Notes under the pieces: model-generated | What the model saw: the letters and a program-made list of their open reading frames with translations, nothing else | Database searches by the model: none | What the model was told of the DNA's origin: nothing | Translations under genes and position numbers: made by a program | Assembly: GCA_020631245.1 (NCBI GenBank) | Contig: JAHDHP010000002.1 | Span: forward strand, 1 to 46,224 | Direction: 5' to 3' | DNA from: Bacteroidota bacterium | Lineage (GTDB): Bacteria > Bacteroidota > Bacteroidia > Chitinophagales > UBA2359 | DNA: 46,224 nucleotides | Shown: positions 21,255-46,224 of the stretch, piece after piece | How the letters are laid out: each line of letters opens with the position of its first letter | How positions within the stretch are numbered: position 1 is the first letter of the stretch

Positions 21255-23435
21255 ATGAATTTTAAACTTTTAGGATTAATCCTATTAACCCTTCTATGTT
21301 GGTTACCAATAAGCTCACAAGCGCAAGTCAATAAAAATGACTGGAAACTTCATACTCCTAGAAGAAATAATGTAGACCTTAACTTTTCAGCCACTCACAC
21401 TAAATTTCAACAAGCCTATATTTCTATTGAAGATCTCAAAGAAAAAATGCAGCTTGTGACACAAGAAATAGAACTCCCAACACCTGATGGACATTTCGAA
21501 ACCTTTGAGATACAACCAGTACAAGTGGTTGCAAATGAGGTAAAAGATCTGTATACCATCAAAACATTTAGAGGGACTAAAAAAGGGGATGCTACGTCAA
21601 TTATCGCCTGTAATATTAGTGATCAAGGATTTCATGCTGCCGTATATGATGGGGAGGATAGTTATTTTATAGAACCTATACATAATGATCATCCAGAGCA
21701 TGTAGCGATTTTTTATAATCAAGATAGATTATCAAATATTACTTGTCATGTACAAGCATTGGTGAAAGATGATATAACCATAGAGGCTTTATCTCTTCAA
21801 GGTAATTCGAACAAAAAACGTAGCTTTCGACTAGCAATCGCTGCAACAAGTACCTATTGCAACGATTTTGGAGGGGAGCCTTACAGTGACACCAATGTTC
21901 TGAATGCATTAGCTGCGGGAGTTAATTTAATCAATCCTATTTTTCTTCGAGATGTAGGAATAGAGTTTACCTTAGTAACAAATAATGCACTAATCTTTGC
22001 TGATTATTATGAAGATCCATATGATATGTATGATCAAGATGAAGCATCAACTATCAATCATGAAGAGTGTGTAAATGCACTTGGTGAGGATGGTTTTGAT
22101 ATTGGACATGTGATAGGTACCGAGGATGAAGGGGGTGTGGGTAGTTTAGCTTGCATCTGTGATAACGCTACTAAGGGAGAAGGAGTATCTAGTGGACCTA
22201 CTGATATTATTGAGCTTTGGGTAGATCTTGTTAGTCATGAGCTAGGGCATCAATTGGGTTCGGAACACAATTTTTCATCCGAAGAATGTGCAAACTCTTA
22301 TATGGGTCATCGCTTTGAGCCAGGAGAAGGTTCAACGATCATGTGTTATGTAGGTGTCTGCGAAGTGGGACCATCAATAGTTACTACTCCTTATTTTCAT
22401 TATAATTCTATCAAAACGATTCGAACAGCCTTAAATGAGACTGCTTGTACTGGCTCAATTGTGAGTGGGAATACGAATAGCCCTATAGCAGATGCAAAAG
22501 CAGATATTACTATTCCTAAAGAAACTCCCTTTATCTTAGTGGGAAGTGCTACTGATGAAAATGATGGGCTTGAGAACTTAACTTATAATTGGCATCAGTG
22601 GGAAGGAAGTGGTGAGGAAACGGTAGGTCAACCCAATTGTGAGAATTTAGATCAACCTTTGTTTAAATATGTCGCACCTTCCACTGAAAATCATCGTTCA
22701 TTCCCTCAATATATAGATGTCTTAGCAGGCAACAATCATAAGTTTTGGGAAAAACTTCCTTGTGTGGCAGGAGAAATGGACTTTTCATTAGCTGTTCGAG
22801 ATAATAATACCACCTTTGGTAGAATCGCACAAGATATAATGAAGGTAAATGTCGCTGATACGGGACCATTTGAAGTAAGTGCTCCTAATGGTGGTGAAAC
22901 TATCATTGGAGGAACTTCTGAAGCCATAACATGGACGGTGAATGGTACAGATGCACATTGTCCTTTAGTAGATGTTTTGTTTTCATCAGACCGAGGAGTT
23001 ACTTATACGATTATTGCTGATGGAATAGCAAATAATGGTAGTGCATTGTTAGAATTGCCCAATATACCAACTACAAAAGGGCGTATTCTAGTTCGATGTG
23101 ATGTAGAAGGTAAATTTAGGGCTTCCTCTACTTTTTTTGATGTATCTAATAATGATTTTGTCGTTGAGGCAGGAAGTACAGGTACATATGAACTTGCAGG
23201 TTTCAGCATTTCTATTTTTCCTAATCCGACATCAAAACAAATTTCTATCATTCCCTCAAACACAGACTCATTTGCATTTGAGTTGATTGATTTAAATGGA
23301 AGAATTATAAAAGCAGGTGAAATGAACCAAGCAACTAATATAAATGTGCTTGGTATTCCTGCTGGATTGTATTATTTGCGAATAGTAAATCAATATTCAG
23401 GTAAAGCTGTTGCCGAAAAAATAGTTATTGAATAA
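21255..23435 (+). CDS. Secreted reprolysin-like zinc metalloprotease with T9SS type A sorting domain
   Basis: A 726-residue secreted protein. The signal peptide spans about 1-24 (LLGLILLTLLCWLPISSQA). A propeptide-like region follows (about 30-190). The metzincin catalytic domain (about 195-400) has the zinc motif HELGHQLGSEH (His328, Glu329, His332, His338) and a Met-turn-like MCY after GHRFEPGEGSTI. Ig-like regions come next (PKETPFILVGSATDENDGLENLTYNWHQ), then a FEVSAPNGGETIIGG module. The last 75 residues are a T9SS type A sorting domain (FSISIFPNPTSKQISI, LNGRIIKAGEM, PAGLYYLRIV). ATG 21255 is chosen over TTG 21219 because it starts a proper signal peptide. It probably degrades extracellular protein or matures other surface proteins. 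Confidence 0.93.
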   Translation: MNFKLLGLILLTLLCWLPISSQAQVNKNDWKLHTPRRNNVDLNFSATHTKFQQAYISIEDLKEKMQLVTQEIELPTPDGHFETFEIQPVQVVANEVKDLYTIKTFRGTKKGDATSIIACNISDQGFHAAVYDGEDSYFIEPIHNDHPEHVAIFYNQDRLSNITCHVQALVKDDITIEALSLQGNSNKKRSFRLAIAATSTYCNDFGGEPYSDTNVLNALAAGVNLINPIFLRDVGIEFTLVTNNALIFADYYEDPYDMYDQDEASTINHEECVNALGEDGFDIGHVIGTEDEGGVGSLACICDNATKGEGVSSGPTDIIELWVDLVSHELGHQLGSEHNFSSEECANSYMGHRFEPGEGSTIMCYVGVCEVGPSIVTTPYFHYNSIKTIRTALNETACTGSIVSGNTNSPIADAKADITIPKETPFILVGSATDENDGLENLTYNWHQWEGSGEETVGQPNCENLDQPLFKYVAPSTENHRSFPQYIDVLAGNNHKFWEKLPCVAGEMDFSLAVRDNNTTFGRIAQDIMKVNVADTGPFEVSAPNGGETIIGGTSEAITWTVNGTDAHCPLVDVLFSSDRGVTYTIIADGIANNGSALLELPNIPTTKGRILVRCDVEGKFRASSTFFDVSNNDFVVEAGSTGTYELAGFSISIFPNPTSKQISIIPSNTDSFAFELIDLNGRIIKAGEMNQATNINVLGIPAGLYYLRIVNQYSGKAVAEKIVIE

Positions 23436-32237: not shown

Positions 32238-33500
32238 TTATTTTGATAAGGCTAATTCCCAAGAGATGGCTTCGGCTGTAATACGCGCATTTTCCATAAC
32301 GCCGTTGATAGAGCCATAGTAATTGTGGTCACCACACATATAGACGCCTCTTTTAACCTGTTGAATATCATTTCGATTGGGCAAATCAATTGATTCTTTG
32401 GCAGGTAGTGCATAAGGTATGCGATAGGTTCTTAATGCTTTCCAATATAATACCTCTTGGTTATACCATTTGGATAACTCCATTTTTACTTCCGATTCAA
32501 GTTTTTCATCGGTCATATCCGATACATCTTCCAAAATAGTTACCGATACCAAATGGCGTCCGTGTGGTGCATAATGCGGGTGAACCACGCTCGGCACACA
32601 AAGGTTGTTGACCAAGCCAAAAGGCTCTCCATTCAATACTAAAATAGGATTTATAACAGGAGGCTTTGCTGCTTCAAAATACATACAGGTCACCGATTTG
32701 CCTTTTGTATTTACTTTTGTTTTGGGAGCCAATTTTTGTGCAGCAGGGGCATCAGTAGCAATCAGAAAGGCACGAGCTGTCAATTTTTCTCCATTCTCTA
32801 AAATGGCTGTTTTACGGCTTATTTTTTCCACTTTGGTATTGAACAAAATAGAATCTCTTTTCAAACGCAATTCTAATTGTTGTGGAATGGCTTGCATCCC
32901 TTCAGCAGGGAGAGCCGCATAGCCTTCCGAAAACATTTTAAAGATAAATCGAAACATTCGACTAGAGGTGTGTAGCTCCTTATCTAAAAACACCCCTCCC
33001 AAAAAAGGGCGAAAGAAAGAGCGCACCATATTGTCGGAAAAATTCCAATCACGTAAATAATCAATGGTTGATTTTTCGGGACGTTTAAATATTTCTTTCT
33101 CATCAAATCGCTTAAAACGATTTTGTAAAGCCAGTACTTTTAGCTTATCACCTGTATTGCTAATAGGATTGAACAGGGTACTAATTGCTCCGCCGGGTTT
33201 GCGAAAAGGGTCGGCAAATCGGTGAAATTTATCATTATACCGAATCAATGCACCTGGATAGAAGTTCTTCAAACCCAACGCGTCAAAGTCAATCATACGA
33301 CGGGTTTCGGGATAGGCTGTTTGTAGTACTTGAAAGCCGTGGTCGAGTAAGAAGCCATTTACCACATCCGTTTTGATGCGTCCTCCTGCACGATTTGTCG
33401 CTTCTATTATTTTGACATTTAAGCCTTCATTTTGAAGGTGTACGGCAGCAGTGAGTCCAGAAACACCTGCACCTATGATGATTACGTCGTATTGTGGCAT
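32238..33500 (-). CDS. FAD-dependent amine oxidase/phytoene-desaturase-like oxidoreductase
   Basis: A 420-residue flavoprotein. The N-terminal dinucleotide fold is YDVIIIGAGVSGLTAAVHL, followed by the GG motif EATNRAGGRIKTD. The C-terminal FAD block is GVYMCGDHNYYGSINGVMENARITAEAI. The fold fits NAD(P)/FAD-dependent amine oxidases, protoporphyrinogen oxidases and carotenoid desaturases. No carotenoid genes lie nearby, so the substrate is not assigned. It starts at ATG 33500. The E2 repeat lies immediately upstream. Confidence 0.88.
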   Translation of the reverse strand: MPQYDVIIIGAGVSGLTAAVHLQNEGLNVKIIEATNRAGGRIKTDVVNGFLLDHGFQVLQTAYPETRRMIDFDALGLKNFYPGALIRYNDKFHRFADPFRKPGGAISTLFNPISNTGDKLKVLALQNRFKRFDEKEIFKRPEKSTIDYLRDWNFSDNMVRSFFRPFLGGVFLDKELHTSSRMFRFIFKMFSEGYAALPAEGMQAIPQQLELRLKRDSILFNTKVEKISRKTAILENGEKLTARAFLIATDAPAAQKLAPKTKVNTKGKSVTCMYFEAAKPPVINPILVLNGEPFGLVNNLCVPSVVHPHYAPHGRHLVSVTILEDVSDMTDEKLESEVKMELSKWYNQEVLYWKALRTYRIPYALPAKESIDLPNRNDIQQVKRGVYMCGDHNYYGSINGVMENARITAEAISWELALSK

Positions 33501-33792: not shown

Positions 33793-33800
33793 TACCTTTG
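33793..33800 (+). promoter_or_regulatory. Promoter -7 element TACCTTTG of mdh
   Basis: TACCTTTG is an exact consensus -7 box 19 bases before the mdh ATG at 33819, giving a short leader of about 12 bases. The TTG inside this box is not a start codon. A TTTG -33 is not obvious at N20. Confidence 0.6.
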
Positions 33801-33818
33801 CAGCAAAATTTAACAACT

Positions 33819-34757
33819 ATGAAGATTTCTGTTATAGGAGCAGGTAATGTTGGGGCAACCTGCGCAAATGTAATTGCCCACAATAACTTCGCCAATGAAG
33901 TTGTATTATTAGATATTAAAGAGGGAATTGCCGAAGGTAAAGCTCTTGATATGTGGGAAACATCTCCCATTAACTCTTACAGTACTCGAACTATTGGTGT
34001 AACAAATGACTATACTGCAACGGCTGGTTCTGCTGTTACCATTATTACATCTGGTATTCCACGTCGTCCAGGGATGAGCCGTGACGATTTGATTGGTACC
34101 AATGCTGGTATTGTAAAATCAGTTACAGAGCAAGTAGTAAAACATTCTCCAGATACGATTATTATCGTTGTAGCGAATCCATTAGATGTGATGACCTACT
34201 GTGCTTATTTGACCTCTGGTTTAGATTCAAGCAAAGTATTTGGTATGGCAGGTATTTTAGATACTGCACGTTACCGTTCTTTCTTAGCAATGGAATTAGG
34301 TGTTTCTCCTCGTGACATCCAAGCTGTATTGATGGGTGGACATGGTGATACGATGGTGCCATTGCCACGTTATACGACTGTTGCTGGTATTCCAATTACC
34401 GAATTAGTTGGAAAAGAGCGTTTAGATGCGATTATCCAACGTACAAAGAAAGGTGGTGGAGAATTGGTGAAATTGATGGGTACTTCTGCTTGGTATGCAC
34501 CAGGTGCTGCGGCTGCTCAAATGGCGGAGACAATTGTGAAAAATGAGCGTCGTATTTTCCCTTGTTGTACTTGGTTGACAGGTGAGTATGGTTTGAGCGA
34601 TATTTACTTAGGAGTTCCTGTTATTTTAGGCTCTAATGGTATCGAAAAAATCATCGAACTAGACTTAAATGCAGAAGAAAAAGCTGATTTGAATACATCT
34701 GCTGAAGCAGTAAGAGGAGTAATGAAGGTATTGGATGATATGAATGCGGCTGTGTAG
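33819..34757 (+). CDS. mdh: Malate dehydrogenase
   Basis: A 312-residue NAD-dependent enzyme that interconverts malate and oxaloacetate in the TCA cycle. The NAD-binding motif is ISVIGAGNVGATCAN. The substrate loop SGIPRRPGMSRDDL carries the substrate-binding arginines, and the catalytic His is in GGHGDTMVPLPRY. The LDH-like MDH type is typical of Bacteroidota. The start is ATG 33819; the longer reading from TTG 33798 would begin inside the promoter. A good terminator follows at 34786. Confidence 0.96.
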   Translation: MKISVIGAGNVGATCANVIAHNNFANEVVLLDIKEGIAEGKALDMWETSPINSYSTRTIGVTNDYTATAGSAVTIITSGIPRRPGMSRDDLIGTNAGIVKSVTEQVVKHSPDTIIIVVANPLDVMTYCAYLTSGLDSSKVFGMAGILDTARYRSFLAMELGVSPRDIQAVLMGGHGDTMVPLPRYTTVAGIPITELVGKERLDAIIQRTKKGGGELVKLMGTSAWYAPGAAAAQMAETIVKNERRIFPCCTWLTGEYGLSDIYLGVPVILGSNGIEKIIELDLNAEEKADLNTSAEAVRGVMKVLDDMNAAV

Positions 34758-34826: not shown

Positions 34827-35034
34827 GGGCGTGCCCTTTTCCGCTTCGCCTGTTTATGCGTGAACGCATGAACAGGCACGAAGCGAAAAAGGTCGGGCTT
34901 TCGGCTAATATGTGGCTACTCGACTACTGTTCAGCATAGTCGTCCCTTGTCTTCGCTTATTTCGCTCAGCCTGCGGCACTCCTTGCTTCACAAGTAGCCT
35001 CCTGACGCCCCATTCCGCCTCTATCCCTCACGCG
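34827..35034 (+). repeat. Element A, copy A6 (divergent)
   Basis: It begins GGGCGTGCCC. The variable hairpin pairs CTTTTTCCGCTTCG-like with CGAAGCGAAAAAG. Then comes GGTCGGGCTTTCGG, and the second stem is GGCTACT/AGTAGCC. The end is CTATCCCTCACGCG. The central hairpin (CTAGCAG type) is lost or replaced by an unrelated sequence, and the closing GTAGTTGG stem is changed, making this the most divergent copy. Confidence 0.75.
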
Positions 35035-35300: not shown

Positions 35301-36794
35301 TTACTTAACTAGCGTTATATTGCCTTTTTCAAGAATGTTATCCCCATCCACAGTTGTGTATTTAATAACCCAGACATACGTTCCAATGGGACTATTATTA
35401 TTATAGGTGCCATCCCAAAATATTCCTTTTTCCTCTGTTCGAAAAACTTGATTTCCCCACCGATCATATACGACATGCTGAAAATCAATTAACTCACAAT
35501 TAATTTGATAGAAGAATGAATCATTTATATCATCATTATTTGGCGAAAAACCACTAACAATAATTGATAGACATGGCTCACAATTTTCTCCTATTTCTAC
35601 TTTAGAAACGATTATGCTATCACAACCCAATTGATTGGTAAAAAACGAATTGTATTCACCAGGCTCAGTGACGACCTCTCCACTAGGTAAGGTAAAACTA
35701 TCTCCCTCACAAAAGTATGCAACAGGATTAGTAATGATGGTATCAGAAACAAGTTCTACTTTAGAAACGATTATGCTATCACAACCCAATTGATTGGTAA
35801 AAAACGAATTGTATTCACCAGGCTCAGTGACGACCTCTCCACTAGGTAAGGTAAAACTATCTCCTTCGCAAAAGTATGCAACAGGATTAGTAATGATGGT
35901 ATCTGAAACTTCTACTTTAGTAACGATAATGCTATCACAGCCAAATTGAGTTGTAAAAAACGAATTGTATTCGCCTGATTCAGTGACTATCACTCCATTA
36001 GGCAAAGTATAACTATCTCCTTCACAAATGTTGACCTGATCATTTGATATATACTCTTCTCCAATAAGAATATCAGTTTGGTAACTTAAAGAACAATTAT
36101 TGATTAAATCAACTACGGTTAAACTAGCACTATAAAGGCCAGGTTCATTAAAGGTGATGTCGGGATTAGCTTCATCTGAGGTTTCTCCATTTGAAAACTC
36201 CCATTGATATTCATAACAAGGTATTGCCGTAAATGTAAAAGCAATTTCTCCTCCATTATCACTATATTGAGTATCATCAAAATGGTATTTTATATCTTCT
36301 CCAGTACCAAGGTATTTGTATTCGTAAATATGGTTCTCATTATAATTATTGGGAATTATCTGACTGGGTTTAGGTTCAATATTACTAAACACACCACCCT
36401 CTGGGCCGGAAATAAAACCAGTAACGAGATCAAATTTTCCAAAACCATCGAACCAATCATTAAAAGTTGGAGATCCAGGCCCGTCATCCCATACAGTCAT
36501 TATCCCTTCTACTTCAAGGGTGTATAAACAACCTTCTACAGTCGGAAAATTAATAATGACTTCTTGGAAATAATCAGTGGTTAATTTACGAAGCTCAATA
36601 TTAGAGGACTTTTCTTCTAGTATAGAAGTGAAATTGACCGTGTTGGGAAATAGGCAATCTTCGTTTTGATTATATTGTATATCTATGTCTTCTAAATTAC
36701 ATTGGGCTTTCACTTGTTGAGTAAAAAAGCTACTTATCAAAAAGGCTAGTAGTGCAACTTGTAATAACTGATAATTAATTGGTATGTTTTTCAT
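35301..36794 (-). CDS. Secreted PKD-domain protein with T9SS type B sorting domain
   Basis: A 497-residue secreted protein. The signal peptide is 1-30 (VALLAFLISSFFTQQVKA). A beta-sandwich region follows (about 35-200). Residues 195-245 form a PKD-like domain (YQWEFSNGETSDEANPDITF). Three tandem units of about 52 residues (about 248-400) share CEGDSFTLPSGEVV and GCDSIIVSKVE. The C-terminus (about 408-497) is a type B sorting domain (gliding-motility-associated type; FSPNNDDINDSFF, YDRWGNQVFRTEEKG, PIGTYVWVIKY). Two of the tandem units are almost identical at nucleotide level. The start and leader resemble those of the neighbouring secreted genes. Confidence 0.9.
   Translation of the reverse strand: MKNIPINYQLLQVALLAFLISSFFTQQVKAQCNLEDIDIQYNQNEDCLFPNTVNFTSILEEKSSNIELRKLTTDYFQEVIINFPTVEGCLYTLEVEGIMTVWDDGPGSPTFNDWFDGFGKFDLVTGFISGPEGGVFSNIEPKPSQIIPNNYNENHIYEYKYLGTGEDIKYHFDDTQYSDNGGEIAFTFTAIPCYEYQWEFSNGETSDEANPDITFNEPGLYSASLTVVDLINNCSLSYQTDILIGEEYISNDQVNICEGDSYTLPNGVIVTESGEYNSFFTTQFGCDSIIVTKVEVSDTIITNPVAYFCEGDSFTLPSGEVVTEPGEYNSFFTNQLGCDSIIVSKVELVSDTIITNPVAYFCEGDSFTLPSGEVVTEPGEYNSFFTNQLGCDSIIVSKVEIGENCEPCLSIIVSGFSPNNDDINDSFFYQINCELIDFQHVVYDRWGNQVFRTEEKGIFWDGTYNNNSPIGTYVWVIKYTTVDGDNILEKGNITLVK
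35597..36040 (-). repeat. Tandem 159-bp coding repeats inside the PKD protein gene
   Basis: A unit of 159 bases (53 residues) begins at 35597 and again at 35756, with only a few differences between the two copies. A third, more diverged copy begins at 35912. The near identity of the first two implies a recent tandem duplication. Confidence 0.85.
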
Positions 36795-36831
36795 GCTGAA
36801 ATTTTAGTTTGTGTATTTGGGGGAGGCAATA

Positions 36832-36900
36832 TCGTAGGGGGTGAACCTATGTGTTCGCCTTTGTTCAAAGAGGACAGACACATAGGTCTGCGCCCTACGA
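36832..36900. repeat. Palindromic repeat F upstream of the PKD protein gene
   Basis: TCGTAGGG..GAACCTATGTGT and its inverted counterpart ACACATAGGTCTGCGCCCTACGA form a 69-base hairpin-type unit. A degenerate relative lies at the centre of the repeat at 11586-11757, and a half (CACCCTACGA) lies near 45703. It sits between the secreted genes at 35301 and 36920. Confidence 0.7.
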
Positions 36901-36919
36901 TAGCACAGAATAATTCTTC

Positions 36920-39805
36920 TTATCTAATCATCACCTTACCCTTCGCCACTCTACCCTTTGTTGATTGAATATGATAGAGATAAACCCCTGCCTGCACTTG
37001 TGGCAATTGTTTTTGATGTAAGGGGATGCTTAGGTTGGGAATAAAGTCTACTTCTTGTCCTAATAAATTGAACAGTTGGAGGGAGAACTGCTCTCCTGCT
37101 TGTATTTGGTTAATTTGAATGCTTAGTTGTTTACGGTCATAGTTGACATTGGCTACCAACATGTCTAGGTCATAAATGGGGGTAGGTGTAGTATAAGTAT
37201 GTATCGTGTCAGGCTCTGAAAGTCCGACTGTGTTAAATACCTCATTGGTAATAATAGGCACATTATAATCGAAGTAAATGGCTGCTTTATTGGTGATGAG
37301 ATCATCATACTTATTGTCTGCTTGTTGTTTCAAGGAATAAGAGATGAAGCCTTGACTAGCTGCTTGATTACTTGCACTATCGGGCAATAAAATTTGATCA
37401 AAGGTGAAGAAGATAACATTACTATCTTCAACTACTAAGTTATAATCGTGGCTAAAGGCAGTTACCTCTAAGCTGGGGAGATATAACTGCTCAACGTCTA
37501 TGGTATCAATAATGATGACCCGATAGGCAACGGCATTACCTGTATTTTGAAAGCGGATGCGATAGTTTAAATCTACGAAATCAGGGATGCGATTCTCTTC
37601 TAGAACACCTGATGGAAACACTATTTTGTCATTCGGATCGTAAGAACCAACAATTTCTTGACAGTCAAAATCGAAGAGTGGATTATCGTCGCCATCCCAT
37701 TGTGAATTTACTAATCCAAAAGAAAAGGGAATATTACCACAACCTTCTACGACCTCTGTGATAGTTGTAATAGAAGGATGTACCAAACTTTGTTTTACGG
37801 TAAGTCTATAAGTCGCTCCTGTAGCTTCATAACTAAGCACCAAACTACCTCCACTTTCCAATTGATAGGTTTCTGTAGCCACTAAAATATTATCTATGTA
37901 TAGTCTGTATGGCCTTGGCGATGACATATCCATACCTGTATTCGTGATCGTAAACCGCACCGAATCCCCTACACATTCGCCCTTTACTTGCAGGTCTTCC
38001 CCTTCCCAAGAAGGATTACTCACACAAGGATCATTAGGAAAAGCGTAAGCATCTACACAAACGGTACTTCTTAGTGTTGCCGCACAACTTATCGAATCGA
38101 GTAGGGTAAAGGAGCCACATTCTAAAACTCCCACATCTCCTATATCAAAAATCAGATAATCGTCCTCTTGCACAAAAGGAATGGAACTGCTTTGAGGGAT
38201 GATTACATCAGGAAAATACAGTTCGATAAAGGCATCTTCAGCAGTAACAGTTCCTATATTGCAATAATTGATCGTGTATATATTTTCAAAACATCTGACA
38301 AGTAAAGGCGTACCGATATTTACGTTCAGTTGAGGGCAATCAACAATAGGTTCGTAGGCATAATTTAAATTGCCAATACTATCAGTAAGACTCGTAAATG
38401 TTGCGCTATAAGGAGTAGTGGGACAGGTTAATGACCATATATCACTTTGCCAATAATTAGTAAAGGTATAGCTACCTATATCTGTTTTTAGGACATAGAA
38501 TCCATCTTCATCTGTTAGGGTAAGAAACTGCTCATCATCTGTATAAACAAATACATTAGGGATGCCTTTTTCGTTTTCGTCTTTAATACAATTACCATTT
38601 TCGTCATAAAAAACATATCCAGTAACTTGGGCCGATTGGACACAAGAAAAATCAACAGCCTCTAGGTCAAGCAAGGGACAAAACATAAAGTTGGGAACCC
38701 CTCCTTGTAAATTATTAGGACAAACTTGGAGTGTTTCTAAACTAGGTAAGTTACTAAAATTAGGAAGCTTACCTGATAAGTCATTATCATCTAGATACAA
38801 CCATCCTAAATTCGGTAAATTACTAAAATCAGGAATCGTACCTGATAAGTCATTTTTATCTAAATACAGCCATTCTAAGTTCGGCATACTACTAAAATCG
38901 GGAATCGTGCCTGATAAGTTATTGCGCCCCAACCAAAGCCATTCTAAATTCGGTAAATTACTAAAATCAGGAATCGATCCAGATAAACTATTATCAAATA
39001 ACATAAGCCTTACTAAATTCGGCATATTGCTGAAATCAGAAATGCTTCCTGTAAGCGCATTATTATTTAATCTAAGCTCAATTAAATTCGGTAAATTACT
39101 AAAATTAGGAATCGATCCAGAGAGGTTGTTTTGATGAAAATCTATTCTTGTTAAGTTTTGCAAATTGCTAAAGTCAGGAATAGCACCTGATAAGTTATTA
39201 TCACTCAATCGAAGCTCTATTAAATTCGGCAAATTGCTAAAATTGGGAATAGCATCTGATAATGTATTTACAAATAAATGAAGGACCTCCAAATTCGGCA
39301 AATTACTAAAATCGGGAATAGCACCTGATAAGTTATTATACTCCAAAGAAAGCCATTTTAAATTCGGCAAATTACTAAAATCGGTAATCGTGCCCGATAG
39401 CTCATTATTACCTAAATTAAGCTCTGTTAAAATCGGCAAATTGCTAAAATCAATTATTGATCCTGAAAGCATATTTTGCGACACATCCAGTTTTTTTAAT
39501 TGGGGCAACTGCAAATCAATTAATGCTCCTTCTAACTGATTAAAATTCATTTCTATTTCTTCGACATTACATCCATCCGATGTTAGGCTTATACCAAACC
39601 ATTGTTCAACAGGAGCTGCTAACCAACCACTATTATTTGCCCAATTAACACCATTAGTGGCATTATAAAAATCCACTAGGACTAAAGAATCACTTTCTGC
39701 TACTGTTGAGCATTGGGCCTGTGCTTGTTGCGTAGTAAAACTTCCCATTAAAAGGCTTAGAAATACTATTGGCAATAAGTACTGATAAATGTTAAGCTTA
39801 TTCAT
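36920..39805 (-). CDS. Secreted plant-type LRR protein with SdrD-B-like, DUF7619-like and T9SS type A domains
   Basis: A 961-residue surface protein. The signal peptide is 1-30 (LPIVFLSLLMGSFTTQQAQA). An LRR cap follows (SDSLVLVDFYNATNGVNWANNSGWL), then twelve 23-residue repeats of the LPNLxxLxLxxNxLSGxIPDFSN type (about 105-385). A VTGYVFYDENGNCIKDENE domain of the SdrD B-like kind spans about 398-470. A long beta-rich region leads to a DUF7619-like domain (SYDPNDKIVFPSGVL; YRIRFQNTGNAVAYRVII; KAAIYFDYNVPIITNEV). The T9SS type A sorting domain is at the end (LSIQINQIQAGEQFSLQLFN, VAKGKVMIR). It is paralogous to the genes at 40227 and 45767. It may serve adhesion (inference). Confidence 0.93.
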   Translation of the reverse strand: MNKLNIYQYLLPIVFLSLLMGSFTTQQAQAQCSTVAESDSLVLVDFYNATNGVNWANNSGWLAAPVEQWFGISLTSDGCNVEEIEMNFNQLEGALIDLQLPQLKKLDVSQNMLSGSIIDFSNLPILTELNLGNNELSGTITDFSNLPNLKWLSLEYNNLSGAIPDFSNLPNLEVLHLFVNTLSDAIPNFSNLPNLIELRLSDNNLSGAIPDFSNLQNLTRIDFHQNNLSGSIPNFSNLPNLIELRLNNNALTGSISDFSNMPNLVRLMLFDNSLSGSIPDFSNLPNLEWLWLGRNNLSGTIPDFSSMPNLEWLYLDKNDLSGTIPDFSNLPNLGWLYLDDNDLSGKLPNFSNLPSLETLQVCPNNLQGGVPNFMFCPLLDLEAVDFSCVQSAQVTGYVFYDENGNCIKDENEKGIPNVFVYTDDEQFLTLTDEDGFYVLKTDIGSYTFTNYWQSDIWSLTCPTTPYSATFTSLTDSIGNLNYAYEPIVDCPQLNVNIGTPLLVRCFENIYTINYCNIGTVTAEDAFIELYFPDVIIPQSSSIPFVQEDDYLIFDIGDVGVLECGSFTLLDSISCAATLRSTVCVDAYAFPNDPCVSNPSWEGEDLQVKGECVGDSVRFTITNTGMDMSSPRPYRLYIDNILVATETYQLESGGSLVLSYEATGATYRLTVKQSLVHPSITTITEVVEGCGNIPFSFGLVNSQWDGDDNPLFDFDCQEIVGSYDPNDKIVFPSGVLEENRIPDFVDLNYRIRFQNTGNAVAYRVIIIDTIDVEQLYLPSLEVTAFSHDYNLVVEDSNVIFFTFDQILLPDSASNQAASQGFISYSLKQQADNKYDDLITNKAAIYFDYNVPIITNEVFNTVGLSEPDTIHTYTTPTPIYDLDMLVANVNYDRKQLSIQINQIQAGEQFSLQLFNLLGQEVDFIPNLSIPLHQKQLPQVQAGVYLYHIQSTKGRVAKGKVMIR

Positions 39806-39844
39806 ATTGGAATTTTTATTTGTATAGTTTCTTTTTGTTTTTTT

Positions 39845-40046
39845 GGACGTGCCCTTTTCCTCCTCGCCCGTTCATGCGTCCTCGTATGAACAAGCACGAG
39901 GAGGAAAAGGTCGGGCTATTCGCTTGTAGTTGTCTCATAGCTACCCGTTTCGCATAGTCCTAGCGGTGTCTTCCGCTGTCAGCCCCGCTAGTCCTTGCTA
40001 CACAAAGGTAGCTATTTCGCCAAACTACCGCTACTATCCCTCACGC
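39845..40046 (+). repeat. Element A, copy A5
   Basis: It begins GGACGTGCCC. The variable hairpin pairs CCTTTTCCTCCTCG with CGAGGAGGAAAAGG, with loop core GCGTCCTCG. GGTCGGGCTATTCG, the second stem ATAGCTACC/GGTAGCTAT and the hairpin CTAGCGG/CCGCTAG follow. It ends CTACTATCCCTCACGC. Directly after it lies a B/C repeat composite. Confidence 0.87.
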
Positions 40047-40048
40047 AA

Positions 40049-40237
40049 TTCCCCTCCTCGGAGGGGTTAGGGGTGGGTTCGATGGAACGATTGACGATGC
40101 GACGTCCGACGGGGCTGCCGCCAGCGTCTTCGCTGGTGGTCACTACGACTTTATACCCACCCCTCGCCCCTCCGAGGAGGGGATTATCGTTCCATCGTCG
40201 GACGTCAATCGTTCCATCGTCGCACGTCAATCGTTAA
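40049..40237. repeat. Composite of repeats B and C in inverted arrangement
   Basis: B (plus, 40051-40079) and B (minus, 40155-40182) face each other. Between them are repeat C units and a hairpin CCGCCAGCG tctt CGCTGGTGG (about 40120-40140). Further C units follow (40185-40237). The last C unit runs into the 3' end and stop codon of the LRR gene at 40227. Its open frames are not genes. Confidence 0.75.
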
Positions 40238-43200
40238 TCATCACCTTCCCTTTCACCACTCTTCCTTTCGATGATTGAATGCGATAGATATAAACACCTT
40301 TTGGTATCGGTGGTACTATTTCTTGGTGTAGTGGTACACTAAGATTCGGAATCAAACCCACTTCTTGCCCCATTATATTGAACAGTTGGAGGGAGAACTG
40401 CTCACCTGCTTGTACCTGATTGATTTGAATACTTAGTTGTTCATTGGCATAGTTGACGGTAGCTTCCAAATCATCTTTAATAATGTGGATTTCTGGTACC
40501 GAGGTATGTACAAAGTCGGCAGTGGTCGTATCAGGAATGCCCACTGTGTTAAATACTTTGTTGGTAATAACTGGCTCATTATAATCAAAGTAAATGGCTG
40601 CTTCATTAGTAATGAGATCACCAATAGCATTACCTTCTTTTTGTGCTAGAGTGTAGGTAATAAATCCATGACTAGCGGGTTCATTGTTAGTGCTATCGGG
40701 CAATAAAATATCATCAAAAGTGAATTGGAGGATATTACCATCTATAACGTCTAATTCAAAATTGTGGCTATAGGCTCCTAGTTCTAAACTGGAGAGTTGT
40801 AAGTGTTCAATGTCTATAGTATCTATGATAACAACCTTATAAGCGACAGCATTACCCGTGTTTTGAAAGCGAATGCGGTAGGTGAGATCAACAAATCGGG
40901 AAATGTGATTGCCCGCTAACACACCAGAAGGAAATACGGTTTTATCATTTGGATCGTAAGAACCAACAATTTCTTGGCAGTCGTAATCAACAAAGGGATT
41001 ATCATCTCCATCCCATTGTGAGTTGACTAAACCGCCCGTAAATGGACCCGCTCCACAGCCCTCTATGGCTTCAGTGACAATCGTACCAGCAGGATTTCCT
41101 AAAGGTTGTTGTAGAGTCAATCTAAAAGTAATATTGGAAGCCTCACGACTTATTATGATACTATCGCCACTTTCTAATTGAAAGGTACTGTTAGCAGCTA
41201 ATACATCATTTTCGTATAGAAAATATGGCTTCTCCAAAGTCATATTGGAGCCTGTATTTTTGATAATAAACTGTACTTCATTACCCAAACATTCGCCTTT
41301 TACCTCTAGGTTTGCTCCACTCCATATAGGACTAATCGTACAAGGGTCATTTGGAAAAGCATAGGCATCTACACAAGCGGTACGCCCCAATACAGCCTCG
41401 CAGCTTACTGAATCGAGTACAGTGAAGGAGCCACATTCCAAAATGCCTATATCTCCTATGTCAAAAATCAGATGATCGTCTGCTTGTACATAAGGAATAG
41501 AGCTACTTAGTGGTACTAGTTCTTCAGGAAAGTAGAGCTCGATATAGGCATTTTCGGCTGGTAATGAACCTTCATTACAATAATTGATCGTATACGTATT
41601 GTTGAAGCACCTAGTAAGCCCAGCACTACCGATTTCTACTTTCAGTTGAGGACACTCTACGCTAGGATTGTAAGCATAATTCATATTGCCAATACTATCA
41701 GAATAAGTGGTAAATGTGGCAGTATGGGGAGAGGAGGATGCTGGACAGCTCTGTGACCACGTTCTACTTGTCCAAGAACTGCCAAAGATATAAGAGCCAA
41801 TATCTGTTCTTAATACATAAAATCCATTCTCATCAGTTCTAGTAATAGTCTGTTCGTCATCTGTATAAACAAATACATTAGGAATGCCTTTTTCGTTTTC
41901 GTCTTTTACACAATTGGCATTTTCATCATAAAATACATAGCCAGATACCTGAGCTGATTCTACGCAAGAAAAATCTGTATCTTCAATAACAAGCAATGGA
42001 CAAAATATAAAGTTAGGAATAGTTCCTTGTAAATTATTGGGACAAACAGTAAGTTCTTTTAAGGATGGTAAATTGCTAAAATTAGGAATAGCACCTGATA
42101 AGTTATTATACTCTAAATAAAGTAGTTTTAAATTGGGCAACTGATTAAAATCAGGTATACTACCTGATAAGTTATTATTATATAAATAAAGTCTTTCTAA
42201 ATTGGGCAATTGATTAAAATCAGGTATACTACCTGATAGATCATTTTCATATAAATAAAGTTTTTCTAAATTCGGCAAATTGCTAAAATTGGGTATACTA
42301 CCTGATAGGTTGTTTTCATTTAAATAAAGTCTTTCTAAATTCGGCAAATTGCTAAAATCAGGTATACTACCCGATAAATCATTATTCGACAAACTAATTC
42401 CTTCTAAACTTGGTAAATGATTAAAATCAGGAATGGTGCCTGACAAGCTATTCTCATATAAGGAAAGAGATGTTAAATTCGGCAACTGATTAAAATCAGG
42501 AACGGAGCCTGTTAAGTTATTATTACCTAAAGAAATCGATTCTAACTTCAGTAAATGATTAAAATCAGGAATGGTGCCTGACAAGCTATTATTACGTAAA
42601 GAAAGAGATATTAAATTGGGCAACTGATTAAAATCGGGTATACTACCTGATAAGTTGTTCTCATATAAATAAAGTTTTTCTAAATTCGGCAAATTGCTAA
42701 AATTGGGTATGCTACCTGATAAGTTATTATTGTTTAATTGAAGTACTCCCAAATTCGGCAAGTTGTTAAAATCAGGAAGACCAGTTAAGTGATTTTCAGC
42801 TACATTCATCGATTCTAAATTGGGCAAATTACTAAAATTGGGTATACTACCTGATAATTTATTTCCCCATAAAAAAAGGGTTGTTAACTTCGGCAAATTA
42901 CTAAAATCGGGAATACTGCCTACTAAGAAACTAGCATCTATGCTAAGCGATTCTAAATTGGGCAAATTACTAAAATCGGGAATACTATTATATGAAAAAT
43001 TATTACTTCCTAAATCAAGATTTATTAAATTGGGCAAATTGCTAAAATCGGTAATATTGTTTAAAAAGCGATTCCCATTTAAATTAAGCGATTCTAAATT
43101 GGGCAAATTACTAAAGTCGGTAATCATACCAGTGAAATTATTCCTATCCAAATTAAGCGTTGTTAAATTCGGTAAATTAGTAAAATCAGGAATGCTTCCA

Positions 43201-43535
43201 TTTATCTCATTTTTACTCAAACTAAGTGATGTTAAATAGGGTAATTGTAGATCTGTTAACTCTCCAGCCAAGTTCCGATTCCAGAAATATATTTTCTCAA
43301 CATGGCAACCATCAGAAGTGAGCGTAATACCATACCATCGTTTAACTGGCTTTACTAGCCAACCACTGTTAATGTCCCAATTATCTCCACCAGTAGCATG
43401 ATAAAAGGCAACTAACTCCAAAGAGTCGCTTTCCGATACACCTGAGCATTGGGCTTGTGTTTCTTGAGTAGTAAAAAAGTTGAGAAGGGCTAGTAGTACT
43501 ACTTGTAAATGATAATTAATGATTATGTTTTTCAT
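40227..43535 (-). CDS. Large secreted plant-type LRR protein with T9SS type A sorting domain
   Basis: An 1102-residue paralog of the protein at 36920. The signal peptide is 1-28 (VVLLALLNFFTTQETQA). The cap is SDSLELVAFYHATGGDNWDINSGWL. Eighteen LRRs of 22-24 residues follow (about 100-515, LPNLxxLxLxxNxLSGSIPDF). The SdrD-B-like VSGYVFYDENANCVKDENE, a DUF7619-like region (SYDPNDKTVFPSGVL; AAIYFDYNEPVITNKV) and the sorting domain (LSIQINQVQAGEQFSLQLFN) follow. The chain ends VKGKVMIND, whereas paralogs end VMIR or VMVR, because the stop lies in a C repeat. ATG 43535 is preceded by the leader seen before other secreted genes. Confidence 0.93.
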   Translation of the reverse strand: MKNIIINYHLQVVLLALLNFFTTQETQAQCSGVSESDSLELVAFYHATGGDNWDINSGWLVKPVKRWYGITLTSDGCHVEKIYFWNRNLAGELTDLQLPYLTSLSLSKNEINGSIPDFTNLPNLTTLNLDRNNFTGMITDFSNLPNLESLNLNGNRFLNNITDFSNLPNLINLDLGSNNFSYNSIPDFSNLPNLESLSIDASFLVGSIPDFSNLPKLTTLFLWGNKLSGSIPNFSNLPNLESMNVAENHLTGLPDFNNLPNLGVLQLNNNNLSGSIPNFSNLPNLEKLYLYENNLSGSIPDFNQLPNLISLSLRNNSLSGTIPDFNHLLKLESISLGNNNLTGSVPDFNQLPNLTSLSLYENSLSGTIPDFNHLPSLEGISLSNNDLSGSIPDFSNLPNLERLYLNENNLSGSIPNFSNLPNLEKLYLYENDLSGSIPDFNQLPNLERLYLYNNNLSGSIPDFNQLPNLKLLYLEYNNLSGAIPNFSNLPSLKELTVCPNNLQGTIPNFIFCPLLVIEDTDFSCVESAQVSGYVFYDENANCVKDENEKGIPNVFVYTDDEQTITRTDENGFYVLRTDIGSYIFGSSWTSRTWSQSCPASSSPHTATFTTYSDSIGNMNYAYNPSVECPQLKVEIGSAGLTRCFNNTYTINYCNEGSLPAENAYIELYFPEELVPLSSSIPYVQADDHLIFDIGDIGILECGSFTVLDSVSCEAVLGRTACVDAYAFPNDPCTISPIWSGANLEVKGECLGNEVQFIIKNTGSNMTLEKPYFLYENDVLAANSTFQLESGDSIIISREASNITFRLTLQQPLGNPAGTIVTEAIEGCGAGPFTGGLVNSQWDGDDNPFVDYDCQEIVGSYDPNDKTVFPSGVLAGNHISRFVDLTYRIRFQNTGNAVAYKVVIIDTIDIEHLQLSSLELGAYSHNFELDVIDGNILQFTFDDILLPDSTNNEPASHGFITYTLAQKEGNAIGDLITNEAAIYFDYNEPVITNKVFNTVGIPDTTTADFVHTSVPEIHIIKDDLEATVNYANEQLSIQINQVQAGEQFSLQLFNIMGQEVGLIPNLSVPLHQEIVPPIPKGVYIYRIQSSKGRVVKGKVMIND

Positions 43536-43629
43536 GCTGAAATTTTTTTAGCACCTTAGTTCTTTGTAAGGCAATTCTATATTTTTTATGAACACATTAA
43601 ATAGGTTTTATTAAAAATAAATAAGCTTT

Positions 43630-43732
43630 GGGGGCACGTCCAAAAACCCACCCCTTGCCCCTCCGAGGAGGGGATTCTTGTTCCATCGTCGCATGTCGCA
43701 CAAAACCCACCCCTAACCCCTTCGAGGCAGGG
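43630..43732. repeat. Orphan element A end plus two B copies
   Basis: GGGGGCACGTCC at 43630-43641 is the terminal block of an element A in minus orientation with the rest of that element missing. Next are B copies in minus orientation at 43646-43673 and 43705-43732, with a C fragment (TTCCATCGTCGCATGTCG) between them. These lie between the LRR gene start and element A7. Confidence 0.65.
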
Positions 43733-43736
43733 AACT

Positions 43737-43950
43737 GCGTGAGGGATAGTAGCGGTAGCTTGGCGAAATAGAAAGGTAGTGACGCTTTTTCTAGCAGGGC
43801 TGACGGAGGAAGACACTGCTAGAAAAATAGCGGAACCCCTTTTCTATGAGCCAACTACAAGCGGATAGCCCGACCCCATTTTGGTTATGAAAATGCCACC
43901 TGCGAGGACGCTGGTGGGAGCATTTTCATAAGCAAAATGGGGGCACGCCC
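43737..43950 (-). repeat. Element A, copy A7
   Basis: Reverse orientation: the TATCCCTCACGC end is at 43737 and GGGCACGCCC ends at 43950. The central hairpin is CTAGCAG/CTGCTAG with a T-rich/A-rich extension (TTTTTCTAGCAG with CTGCTAGAAAAA) in place of the GC-rich extension of A3. The variable terminal stem pairs CCCCATTTTGG..GCCACC with its complement, with loop TGCGAGGACGCT. It ends five bases before the stop of the gene at 43956. Confidence 0.87.
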
Positions 43951-43955
43951 AACAA

Positions 43956-45578
43956 TTAAAATTTAACTAACTTCTCCACTGTTCGCTCGTTTTCTCCTTC
44001 AATAGAGAGATAATACATCCCACTAGGATATTCTGATATATTTATGGTATATTGTTCCTTTTCGATGGCAATAGATTTGATCCTTTTACCAAATGAATCG
44101 AATAATTGGACATTTATTTCCTTTAAGTGAACGGAAGGAATGTTGAGTGTTATATGGTCGTTGCAGGGATTGGGTAGTAAGCTAATCTGTTCTGAAAGGG
44201 GCTTTTCTGTTGATGTTGCACCTGTTATCATGACCTCTATAGACGTTTTTTGGTAACAATCCCAAGCGGACGGATTATCAACAATGAGTGTAATAGTTCC
44301 AAAACCCATTGATCCCCATTCTACATTAATTGTATGATCGTCCATGTTGGTTACAGTACCACCTGTTACAGACCAAGTATAGGAATAAGCAGAATTGGGA
44401 GGAGTTGAATATCTACTGGTTGTTCCTCCCTGAACAATAGTGGGTCCCTCAATTTCGCCCTTTTCAGCGGGTAGTGGATTTCCGATATAAGTTTGTAGCT
44501 TATTGTCCCAAATTGGATTTAAAATAACCGTATCACCAGAGACAGAAAGTGCATGAATCGTTGACCAATTTTGACTGTGATACGAGATGTCCCAACAGGT
44601 AGCTTCTGCATTATCTTCTCTAAGTTGAGCGATCCGATATTTGCCTTTACCACCCAATTTCCACGCATTGCTTCCTACCCATATAAAATCTCCATCGGCG
44701 GCAAGGTTGAGCACTTCATGGCTACTTGCTGATTGGCTCCAGGGCAACAGATTGCCTTCTAAGTCGTAGGCAGCTACTCCTTTTCTTGCTTGTCCTGCCA
44801 CCTCGCTAAAGGAGCCTCCTACAAAAATAGCGTTGTTTGTTTTCACAATTGCCGTAACTCCAAAGTTCCCACCATCGGTTATCCCAGCAATCCAATCAGT
44901 ATCCAAGGCACCAGTTGTTAAATCAAATCGACATAAATGATTATATCTGGAATCTCCTGAGATGAAGTAAAAATCTCCTCCTACATATAAATGGTTTCCC
45001 TCAATAAAAAGCTGATTAACCCCATGAGCAGTACGGAATTCGTCCGTTTCCCAATCTAGGAATGATGCTGTAGAAACATCATAAGCAACAATTTTGTGGG
45101 GATTTCTATTGACATAGTAAATTACATTTCCACGTGCGCAAATTCCACTTCTCCAACCAGGATACATTGCACGACCTTCAAATGGTACTATTGCTCCCGT
45201 TTCAAGATCAAATATGCAGATTCCTAAGTATTGCTCATCGTTAATTTCTTGAAAGCTCCCAGTTACGACTATCTTATCAGCAACTATTTCCATGTTATCT
45301 ATGCTGCCTGTCATGGAGGAAATAGGTGTCCAATCGCTTAGCTCTCCCGTTTTAGCATCATACCTAGCTAATCCTTTTCGGGGTTCTCCGTTAATTTCCC
45401 TGAATTTTCCTCCAATGTAAACGGTGTTACCAGCCTGTTTTATAGCAAATACATCTTCGACATCAGGAGTAATATAAGATAATCTTTGGGCATGTACTTG
45501 TTGGGTAGTTAAACTACCAATAATAATGGCAAGTACTGCCAATTGAAATAAATGATAATTAATGATTAAGTTTTTCAT
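43956..45578 (-). CDS. Secreted beta-propeller protein with T9SS type A sorting domain
   Basis: A 540-residue secreted protein. The signal peptide is 1-30 (LAVLAIIIGSLTTQQVHA). Residues about 35-400 form repeated propeller-like units (NTVYIGGKFREINGEPRKGLARYDAKTGEL; NAIFVGGSFSEVAGQARKGVAAYDLEGN), as in delta-60-type or PQQ-like repeats. A PKD/Ig-like segment follows (YTWSVTGGTVTNMDDHTINVEW), and the C-terminal T9SS type A sorting domain has ISLLPNPCNDHITLNI and PSGMYYLSIEG. ATG 45578 is chosen: the 64 residues that an upstream TTG or ATG would add come from repeats B and D and are not a signal peptide. Its function is unknown. Confidence 0.88.
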   Translation of the reverse strand: MKNLIINYHLFQLAVLAIIIGSLTTQQVHAQRLSYITPDVEDVFAIKQAGNTVYIGGKFREINGEPRKGLARYDAKTGELSDWTPISSMTGSIDNMEIVADKIVVTGSFQEINDEQYLGICIFDLETGAIVPFEGRAMYPGWRSGICARGNVIYYVNRNPHKIVAYDVSTASFLDWETDEFRTAHGVNQLFIEGNHLYVGGDFYFISGDSRYNHLCRFDLTTGALDTDWIAGITDGGNFGVTAIVKTNNAIFVGGSFSEVAGQARKGVAAYDLEGNLLPWSQSASSHEVLNLAADGDFIWVGSNAWKLGGKGKYRIAQLREDNAEATCWDISYHSQNWSTIHALSVSGDTVILNPIWDNKLQTYIGNPLPAEKGEIEGPTIVQGGTTSRYSTPPNSAYSYTWSVTGGTVTNMDDHTINVEWGSMGFGTITLIVDNPSAWDCYQKTSIEVMITGATSTEKPLSEQISLLPNPCNDHITLNIPSVHLKEINVQLFDSFGKRIKSIAIEKEQYTINISEYPSGMYYLSIEGENERTVEKLVKF

Positions 45579-45617
45579 GCTGAACTTTTTATTTGTATAG
45601 TTTGGACTGTCTTCAAG

Positions 45618-45765
45618 TCTCCTCTTGGGAGGAGATTTAGAGGTGGGTTTTGTGCGAGTAGAGACAAGGCATACCTTGTCTTTACGAGTGCGAAGTGCTC
45701 TGCACCCTACGATTATACCCACCCCTTGCCCCTCCGAGGAGGGGAATATCGTTCCATCGTTATTC
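45618..45765. repeat. Composite of repeats B, D and C between secreted genes
   Basis: A degenerate B unit in plus orientation (45618-45651), the D palindrome (45658-45685), a fragment resembling the F end (CACCCTACGA), a B copy in minus orientation (45717-45744), and a C fragment (ATCGTTCCATCG) that ends at the stop of the next gene. The arrangement is much like 40049-40237. Confidence 0.75.
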
Positions 45766-45766
45766 G

Positions 45767-46224
45767 TCACCTCACCATCACCTTCCCCTTCACAATTCTT
45801 CCTTTCGATGATTGAATACGATACAGATAAACACCTCTTGGTATCGGTGGTAATAATTCTTGATGTAATGGTATACTTAGATGAGGAATCAAACCTATTT
45901 CTTGTCCCATTATATTGAACAGTTGGAGGGAGAACCGCTCTCCTGCTTGTACTTGGTTGATTTGAATATTGAGTTGGCTATTATCATGGTTGACAGTAGC
46001 ACCTAAATGATCTTTAATAATGGGGATTTCTGGTACAGAGGTATGTACAAAGTTGGCAGTGGTCGTATCAGGAATACCGACCGTATTAAACACTTTATTC
46101 GTAATGACTGGCTCATTATAATCGAAATAAATGGCAGCTTCATTGGTGATGAGATCGCCAATAGCATTGTCTTTTTGGGCTAAAGTGTAGGTAATAAATC
46201 CATGACTAGCGGGTTCATTGCTGG
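45767..46224 (-). CDS. C-terminal part of a secreted LRR-family paralog (cut by window edge)
   Basis: The frame stays open to the window end, so only the last 152 residues are visible. They match the C-terminus of the protein at 40227 closely: PASHGFITYTLAQKDNAIGD, AAIYFDYNEPVITNKVFNTVG, then the T9SS type A sorting domain (LNIQINQVQAGERFSLQLFN, PPIPRGVYLYRIQSSKG). The end is VKGKVMVR. A start proposed at 46093 is an internal GTG and is not real. The upstream part presumably carries the same domain order as the other paralogs (inference). Confidence 0.88.
   Translation of the reverse strand, partial: SNEPASHGFITYTLAQKDNAIGDLITNEAAIYFDYNEPVITNKVFNTVGIPDTTTANFVHTSVPEIPIIKDHLGATVNHDNSQLNIQINQVQAGERFSLQLFNIMGQEIGLIPHLSIPLHQELLPPIPRGVYLYRIQSSKGRIVKGKVMVR

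Follow-up and report, generated by a model that had tools for sequence, protein, structure and literature searches.

What does it mean when adjacent genes for secreted proteins begin alike at the DNA level and then lead into mature parts without detectable homology? The question is raised by an array of genes in a 46,224-nucleotide stretch of DNA (the window), which is one whole contig (C117) of a draft Bacteroidota genome (4.44 Mb in 428 contigs, 78% complete and presumably metagenome-assembled). A preliminary description of this DNA had pointed to protein starts of the form MKNxxINY, signal peptides with T(T)Q(Q/E)xxAQ-type ends and the bases TTCAGC before the ATG, and had proposed domain shuffling in which an expression and export cassette is reused. 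All of these elements are present, and the domain labels assigned there (PKD with type B sorting, LRR and beta-propeller) are confirmed by Pfam and NCBIfam.

Organization of the array

Read 5' to 3' on the minus strand, the array consists of the 3' end of LRR3, the propeller gene, LRR2, LRR1 and the PKD gene. Its features are as follows:

35301..36794, minus: PKD gene, 497 aa; signal peptide, N-terminal part, PKD domain, 3 repeats, T9SS type B sorting domain (CHU_C / TIGR04131); Pfam PF18911 and PF13585, TIGR04131 at 39.4 bits
36702..36824, minus: cassette copy of the PKD gene, made up of 31 signal-peptide codons and the 30 bases before them; BLAST and block z-scores
36920..39805, minus: LRR1 gene, 961 aa; signal peptide, LRRs, SdrD_B-like stretch (below cut-off), DUF7619, T9SS type A tail; Pfam and NCBIfam
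39713..39835, minus: more divergent cassette copy of LRR1 (MNKLNIYQY); E 9.7e-13, 74% to the propeller cassette
40050..40183, no strand: palindromic intergenic repeats (CCCACCCCTnnCCCCTCCGAGGAGGGGA) between LRR2 and LRR1
40227..43535, minus: LRR2 gene, 1102 aa; paralogous to LRR1, with which it aligns at 65% identity
43449..43565, minus: cassette copy of LRR2 with 29 signal-peptide codons; E 8.0e-14, 76% to the propeller cassette
43956..45578, minus: beta-propeller gene, 540 aa; a signal peptide followed by a DUF5122/Rax2-like propeller, a stretch resembling PKD_6 (below cut-off) and a T9SS type A tail; Pfam, NCBIfam and BLASTP
45486..45608, minus: cassette copy of the propeller gene; BLAST and all-vs-all scores
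45767..46224, minus: LRR3, a third gene of LRR/DUF7619 type, of which the contig includes the 3' end

Each complete protein of the array combines an N-terminal signal peptide, judged by inspection, with a type A or B C-terminal sorting domain, as expected of T9SS cargo. TIGR04183 scores over the NCBIfam cut-off in LRR1, LRR2, the propeller protein and the LRR3 tail, and TIGR04131 does likewise in the PKD gene; Pfam PF18962 stays below its own cut-off in all three LRR proteins. The type A tail of the propeller protein gives no BLASTP match to those of the LRR genes. The three repeats of the PKD protein are ~52 aa each, two of them nearly identical. Along the 151 aa of its tail, LRR3 shares 86% identity with LRR2, and the 5' end of the same gene may be the LRR-type start at position 6516 of another contig, C197. 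The propeller gene likely starts at the ATG at 45578 and not at the GTG at 45770 given in the mechanical ORF list. To the left of the array, the two genes scanned (33798-34757 and 32238-33500) encode metabolic enzymes.

An LRR 3' end directly precedes both the PKD gene (by 125 bases) and the propeller gene (by 188 bases), so that the 5' flanks of these two genes align with each other back into the LRR tails. The palindromic repeat of the spacers has 53 copies in the genome at no more than 2 mismatches; the reversed control has 0. The propeller gene is bracketed by further copies at 43647-43674 and 45718-45745, and three same-orientation copies bound the propeller gene and LRR2 on both sides. 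These spacer repeats could promote rearrangement.

Homology of the leader DNA

The leaders themselves are MKNIPINYQLLQVALLAFLISSFFTQQVKAQ (PKD), MKNIIINYHLQVVLLALLNFFTTQETQAQ (LRR2), MKNLIINYHLFQLAVLAIIIGSLTTQQVHAQ (propeller) and MNKLNIYQYLLPIVFLSLLMGSFTTQQAQAQ (LRR1). The PKD, LRR2 and propeller proteins start with MKNIPINY, MKNIIINY and MKNLIINY, respectively, and in all three genes TTCAGC stands immediately 5' of the ATG; the signal peptides end in FFTQQVKAQ (PKD), TTQETQAQ (LRR2), TTQQVHAQ (propeller) and TTQQAQAQ (LRR1). Exactly 3 copies of TTCAGCATGAAAAA occur in the 4.44 Mb genome, all at the array, and AAACTATACAAATAAAAA is common to the LRR1 and propeller cassettes as 18 identical bases. 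The propeller leader equals that of LRR1 from -25 to -8 and is nearly that of LRR2 from the ATG to codon 10, matching LRR2 and PKD around the ATG. On C197, near the contig end, a gene start encodes MKKIMSTDCIWQMILLILIIGSLSTQRVQAQCSGVTVSDSLELVAFYN, an N-terminus resembling those of LRR1 and LRR2. By inspection, all five leaders have A-Q at the expected place, with Gln at +1. In a lipobox, A, G or S precedes the Cys; here the leaders end in A-Q, and the residue before any Cys is Q, contrary to that rule.

A BLAST search of the whole 4.44 Mb genome with the 120-base propeller cassette recovered the cassettes of PKD (E 2.0e-18, 77% identity), LRR2 (E 8.0e-14, 76%) and LRR1 (E 9.7e-13, 74%), along with the LRR-type gene start at the end of C197 (E 3.9e-8, 74%); beyond these three sister genes and C197, the best E-value in the genome was 0.25. 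The PKD, LRR2 and LRR1 leaders thus differ from the propeller copy by 23-26%. An exact protein-pattern search matched only LRR2, its gap range being too narrow for 31-codon leaders.

For an all-vs-all comparison we assembled 117 T9SS 5' ends, namely the five group members and 112 further type A genes, with the PKD gene as the only type B gene. The 112 derive from a genome search with TIGR04183, in which 150 of 215 first-look candidates were scored and 142 of these matches entered, after removal of six that lie on the window contig and two others of odd form; leaving out 12 that were cut at a contig start reduced the set to 130, of which 120 were fetched and 112 had a usable start (some guessed). 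The window's two other T9SS genes (matches 23214-23429 and 12889-13065) stand outside this comparison. Among 6711 background pairs without detected homology of their mature parts the maximum score was 182, and of the 65 background pairs whose mature parts are homologous, two score 235 and 240. Within the group the scores are 340 for PKD-propeller, 300 each for propeller-LRR1 and propeller-LRR2, 287 for PKD-LRR2, 269 for propeller-C197, 223 for PKD-LRR1, 211 for LRR1-LRR2 and 207 for LRR1-C197; PKD-C197 at 185 lies just above the background maximum and LRR2-C197 at 166 inside the background. The mature part available on C197 spans only ~14 residues, so its pairs count as 'not homologous' in this comparison for having too little sequence; it is 87.5% identical to LRR2 over 16 aa. 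The propeller cassette is the top-scoring partner of each of the other four. Another 30 T9SS pairs lie on a common contig, 4 of them homologous, and the best non-homologous score there was 114.

At sites with the same residue, identical codons exceed the expectation from codon usage in PKD-LRR2 (16/18 vs 8.1), propeller-LRR2 (13/15 vs 7.4) and PKD-propeller (13/18 vs 8.3), and are near it in LRR1-C197 (5/10 vs 4.4). Because of the BLAST results, the pair scores and this excess of identical codons, we regard common descent of the cassette DNA of PKD, propeller, LRR2 and LRR1 as a well-supported reading of these sequences. A tree of the five cassettes did not resolve their branching (supports 14.9/37 and 24.4/41).

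Extent of the homology and position of the seam

When the aligned genes were divided into blocks and compared with shuffles, the signal peptide past its first 24 nt gave z-scores of 7.4-13.3 in all ten pairs. The block from -30 to -1 ranged from -0.4 to 6.3, significant in some pairs only, and the block from -60 to -31 showed no similarity beyond the shuffles (z at most 1.9). Across the first 45 nt of the mature part, z was at most 1.5 in every pair with PKD or propeller and 5.7-13.6 among the LRR genes, and BLASTP among the PKD, propeller and LRR mature parts returned no match at E <= 10. The homologous block accordingly runs from about -30 to the signal-peptidase site, and since the block similarity ends there for PKD and propeller, the break in these genes lies at or next to that site. 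The sharing between LRR1 and LRR2 is ordinary whole-gene duplication, so that only the PKD and propeller genes are chimeras; the idea of cassette reuse in the preliminary description therefore stands insofar as one 5' segment precedes unrelated mature parts, and not for the LRR pair.

An exact match to the promoter consensus TAnnTTTG is absent from the sense strand of all five genes within 200 bases 5' of the start. The upstream part of the segment covers the translation start and includes no recognisable shared promoter, though one of another type or at a farther position may exist. For what had been called an expression and export cassette, with homology ending at about -30 and no shared promoter found, 'expression' was too strong a word.

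Relatives and possible donors

LRR/DUF7619 genes are common among relatives, a match to LRR1 at E <= 1e-30 being found in 18 of 20 family genomes. Among the best first-look candidates scored, propeller residues 1-368 had no match in the 19 other family genomes; in the family search, no match to the propeller protein outside the window starts before residue 362, so that all of them fall in its PKD-like and sorting parts. At the level of the order, again among the best first-look candidates scored, these residues find matches in 20 of 396 genomes, our own included, and the best homologue is 31% identical over 13-368 and has a different leader, MSVKRNLLVLSIIFSLATDAQ. For the first ~180 residues of the PKD protein, the listed family matches contain no counterpart. 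In the 78% complete assembly, no donor copy of the propeller mature part was found, and none of the PKD mature part among the matches listed.

We also compared the leaders of 69 5' ends, drawn from three loci of our own genome and 20 of relatives, the loci of relatives having been chosen for their LRR/DUF7619 genes and not at random, and only ORFs with a leader found by rule being used. Across these 23 loci, eight within-genome leader pairs score above the between-genome maximum (153), all within the LRR/DUF7619 group, one member being a short ORF that overlaps an LRR/DUF7619 gene. A comparable chimera, i.e. an unrelated gene with the shared leader, was absent from the 20 sampled loci of relatives. 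As these high-scoring leader pairs all fall within the LRR/DUF7619 group, the chimeras look local, even though the leaders of the array have meanwhile come to differ from the propeller copy by 23-26%.

A search for the leader itself in 60 genomes, with at most 14 candidates scored per genome, gave a match at E <= 0.01 in 8, our own included. The matches in the seven others are partial, spanning 22-38 bases with a best E-value of 5e-4, and were taken as chance.

Origin of the chimeric genes

We consider it fairly probable that an LRR gene was tandemly duplicated and that two unrelated T9SS cargo sequences were fused behind spare copies of its leader. What is directly observed here is the homology of the segment, its sharp 3' limit, the lack of detectable homology among the mature parts and the LRR tails upstream of both chimeras. 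The ancestral segment of ~120 bases would have run from an A-rich stretch at the translation start (about -30 to -1) through a Sec signal peptide to the signal-peptidase I site, with copies passed by descent to the four genes of the array and to the fifth LRR-type gene start on C197. Tandem duplication would have generated a head-to-tail array of LRR/DUF7619 surface-protein genes. Two slots of this array, one following LRR3 and one following LRR1, now have the segment joined in frame, at or next to the cleavage site, to the propeller and the PKD/type B cargo, respectively, each of which may have been captured by recombination. The shared leader is predicted to direct Sec export, with signal peptidase I cleaving before Gln, and outer-membrane crossing by T9SS is predicted to depend on each protein's own type A or B C-terminal signal. 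The leader scores pose a difficulty for a simple history with an LRR donor, which does not predict that the LRR1 and LRR2 leaders are less alike (211) than either is to the propeller leader (300 and 300); judging from these scores, the propeller leader as source could also fit. Since the cassette tree is not resolved, we infer the direction from LRR to the other genes and do not take it as observed. Of the domain shuffling originally proposed, then, the shared segment before unrelated mature parts is borne out; the process would be a deduction from it, and gene conversion may also have produced the pattern.

Gene conversion is indeed the main rival, although we think it unlikely: the PKD and propeller genes would be old neighbours with leaders of their own, and one leader would have been copied among all of them. 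The mosaic look of the propeller leader (LRR1 at -25 to -8, LRR2 from the ATG) and a cassette tree without resolution, as repeated exchange would leave it, both suit this reading, but homology in the flanks is normally a requirement of gene conversion, and PKD and propeller have none that is detectable beyond -30 or past the cleavage site. Quite improbable, in our estimation, is a version of events in which the leader is a recurring docking point where in-frame capture of any secreted coding sequence at the cleavage codon of an LRR-array leader yields a working surface protein; the array would then be a chromosomal slot at which unrelated T9SS cargo comes and goes among strains through recombination at the translation-start/signal-peptide DNA and at the palindromic spacer repeats.

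The remaining explanations fare worse. Chimeric joins made by the assembler at the repeated leader might be suspected in a draft so fragmented (428 contigs), with a contig that ends inside an LRR gene; against this, the copies depart from the propeller copy by 23-26%, too much to present the assembler with a long exact repeat at which it could join falsely, and the reading frames are all intact with proper sorting tails, which leaves such an artefact very unlikely. The chance that the array is a programmed switching locus like mycoplasma vsa, with one leader moved among surface-protein genes to alter their expression, is slimmer still, for all that tandem surface-protein genes with a common 5' segment and repeats in their spacers recall one: the four genes carry separate leaders that have diverged (23-26% from the propeller copy), all genes run in the same direction with no inverted repeat of at least 24 bases found at the leaders, and the two left-hand neighbours scanned are metabolic enzymes, not recombinases. 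Finally, signal peptides might be alike merely through common export and codon biases, with no common descent. The A-Q ending lends itself to this argument: as a shared mark it is present just as the preliminary description had it, but it reflects the general Bacteroidetes Q-rule (PMC5837995), and an AQ falls within residues 16-42 in 82 of the 117 T9SS proteins, all five group members included. E-values down to 2e-18, scores above all 6711 unrelated pairs and the excess of identical codons nevertheless speak against it, and for the PKD, propeller, LRR2 and LRR1 cassettes convergence is refuted by the BLAST, score and codon results; we assign it a negligible probability. Identity no higher than signal-peptide composition would give was the outcome that the preliminary description had named as fatal to its proposal, and by BLAST, the 6711 pairs, the shuffles and the codon counts the identity exceeds that level.

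Parallels in known systems

Among known systems the array comes closest to the Erp family of Borrelia burgdorferi (OspE/OspF/Elp, with an 'upstream homology box'), in which one leader precedes surface proteins whose remaining parts are reported to be of many independent origins; the Erp genes encode lipoproteins and occupy a single allelic site on cp32 prophage plasmids, where promoter and operator are shared (PMC10016077). The array resembles Erp in having homologous leader DNA before unrelated mature parts. It differs in being four clustered genes for T9SS cargo with leaders of the signal-peptidase I type and homology reaching only to about -30. A shared promoter or operator like that described for Erp was not found at the array (z at most 1.9 for -60 to -31; no TAnnTTTG in 200 bases), its genes are not of the lipoprotein type, and they stand in tandem on a 46 kb contig with metabolic genes. 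On promoter, lipoprotein nature and plasmid location it is thus not an Erp locus.

The Q-rule, under which A-Q at the signal-peptidase I site is the norm of the phylum and cleavage would expose Gln (PMC5837995), accounts for the residues at the cleavage site only, and not for the identity of whole-leader DNA at the array. Duplicated LRR/DUF7619 genes in relatives also share leaders, as in a pair on G003:C83 (score 275) and another on G002:C185 (551); there, unlike in the chimeras of the array, both genes belong to one group. In the mycoplasma vsa/vpma loci, several surface-protein genes make use of a single promoter and N-terminal coding segment, which site-specific inversion moves to silent genes (PMC4534519), whereas the genes of the array each have their own copy and no sign of inversion was found.

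In a narrow and partial literature search we found no description of a case of this sort among T9SS cargo, Erp being the sole close parallel. The array is a small, tidy instance of an event whose kind is already known: a secretion tag appears to have been recycled as a ready-made part. A fusion seam at the signal-peptidase site means that export signals behave as separable DNA modules, and if strains differ in what lies behind the leader, the locus would show how Bacteroidota diversify their T9SS surface proteins.

A protein family encoded beside T9SS genes

In the course of examining relatives we observed that an ORF of ~470-505 aa with no apparent signal peptide lies near the LRR/DUF7619 gene in 15 of their 20 loci. 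When 24 ORFs of this ~480-aa class were compared, 19 (from 15 loci and our own genome's contig C135) proved mutually homologous and 5 did not. There was no Pfam match over the cut-off for six members, no NCBIfam match for four and no PDB sequence match for one, and tblastn at E <= 1e-3 placed no member in the window or on C197. With a profile built from eight members, all 20 of the 20 family genomes had matches, 388 in total (2 to 43 each, with 20 in our own). Among 12 of these 20 own copies that were examined, 8 are head-to-head with a T9SS type A gene, one each with a TonB-dependent receptor and a C25-peptidase gene, one is convergent with a T9SS gene, and one is without such a neighbour in the stretch seen. 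The family is therefore often found head-to-head with T9SS genes.

Repeats in the spacers and coding regions of the array

The palindromic repeat CCCACCCCTnnCCCCTCCGAGGAGGGGA occurs in 53 copies in the genome at no more than two mismatches, as opposed to none for the reversed control sequence. Four of these lie in the array, all of them between genes, with the remaining 49 at other places in the genome:

40050-40077, palindromic repeat
40156-40183, palindromic repeat
43647-43674, palindromic repeat
45718-45745, palindromic repeat

The spacers 5' of LRR1 and LRR2 (39909-40099 and 43684-43875) each carry long inverted copies of the other's sequence, with matches of 88 nt at 84% complementarity (I1) and of 32 nt at 94% (I4). 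By eye, 34860-34900 also resembles this inverted spacer sequence.

Repetition extends into the genes themselves. The LRR regions of LRR1 (38617-39537) and LRR2 (41939-43236) consist mainly of in-phase repeats of 69 bases (23 aa), with about 60-80% identity across long stretches both within and between the two genes; this repetitiveness perhaps caused the contig break inside LRR3. In the PKD gene, a repeat of about 156 bases occurs three times (35595-36065), and the 98% identity of one pair of copies suggests a recent expansion.

Both LRR1 and LRR2 (within 36920-43535) also contain DUF7619 domains; PMC12617251 lists DUF7619 among the domains that have an intramolecular isopeptide bond of the Lys-Asp-Asn type.

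A protein family beside surface-protein genes

We also observed an unnamed family of proteins of about 480 aa, lacking an apparent signal peptide, in this genome and its relatives (388 matches, covering all 20 family genomes). The members scanned gave no match above the cut-off in Pfam or NCBIfam. Eight named own-genome copies, among others that exist, and an example from a relative are:

C135:3107-4582 (L285)
C11:13608-15062 (L347)
C42:5927-7405 (L348)
C363:2-1456 (L349)
C4:7721-9190 (L350)
C184:2508-3938 (L351)
C44:5880-7397 (L352)
C189:4547-5956 (L346)
L287:8606-10096 (locus in a relative)

Gene neighborhoods were examined for 12 of the 20 own-genome copies: for eight of them the head-to-head partner is a T9SS type A gene, and for two it is a gene for a TonB receptor or a C25 peptidase. 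The family may serve to regulate or assist the neighboring surface protein.
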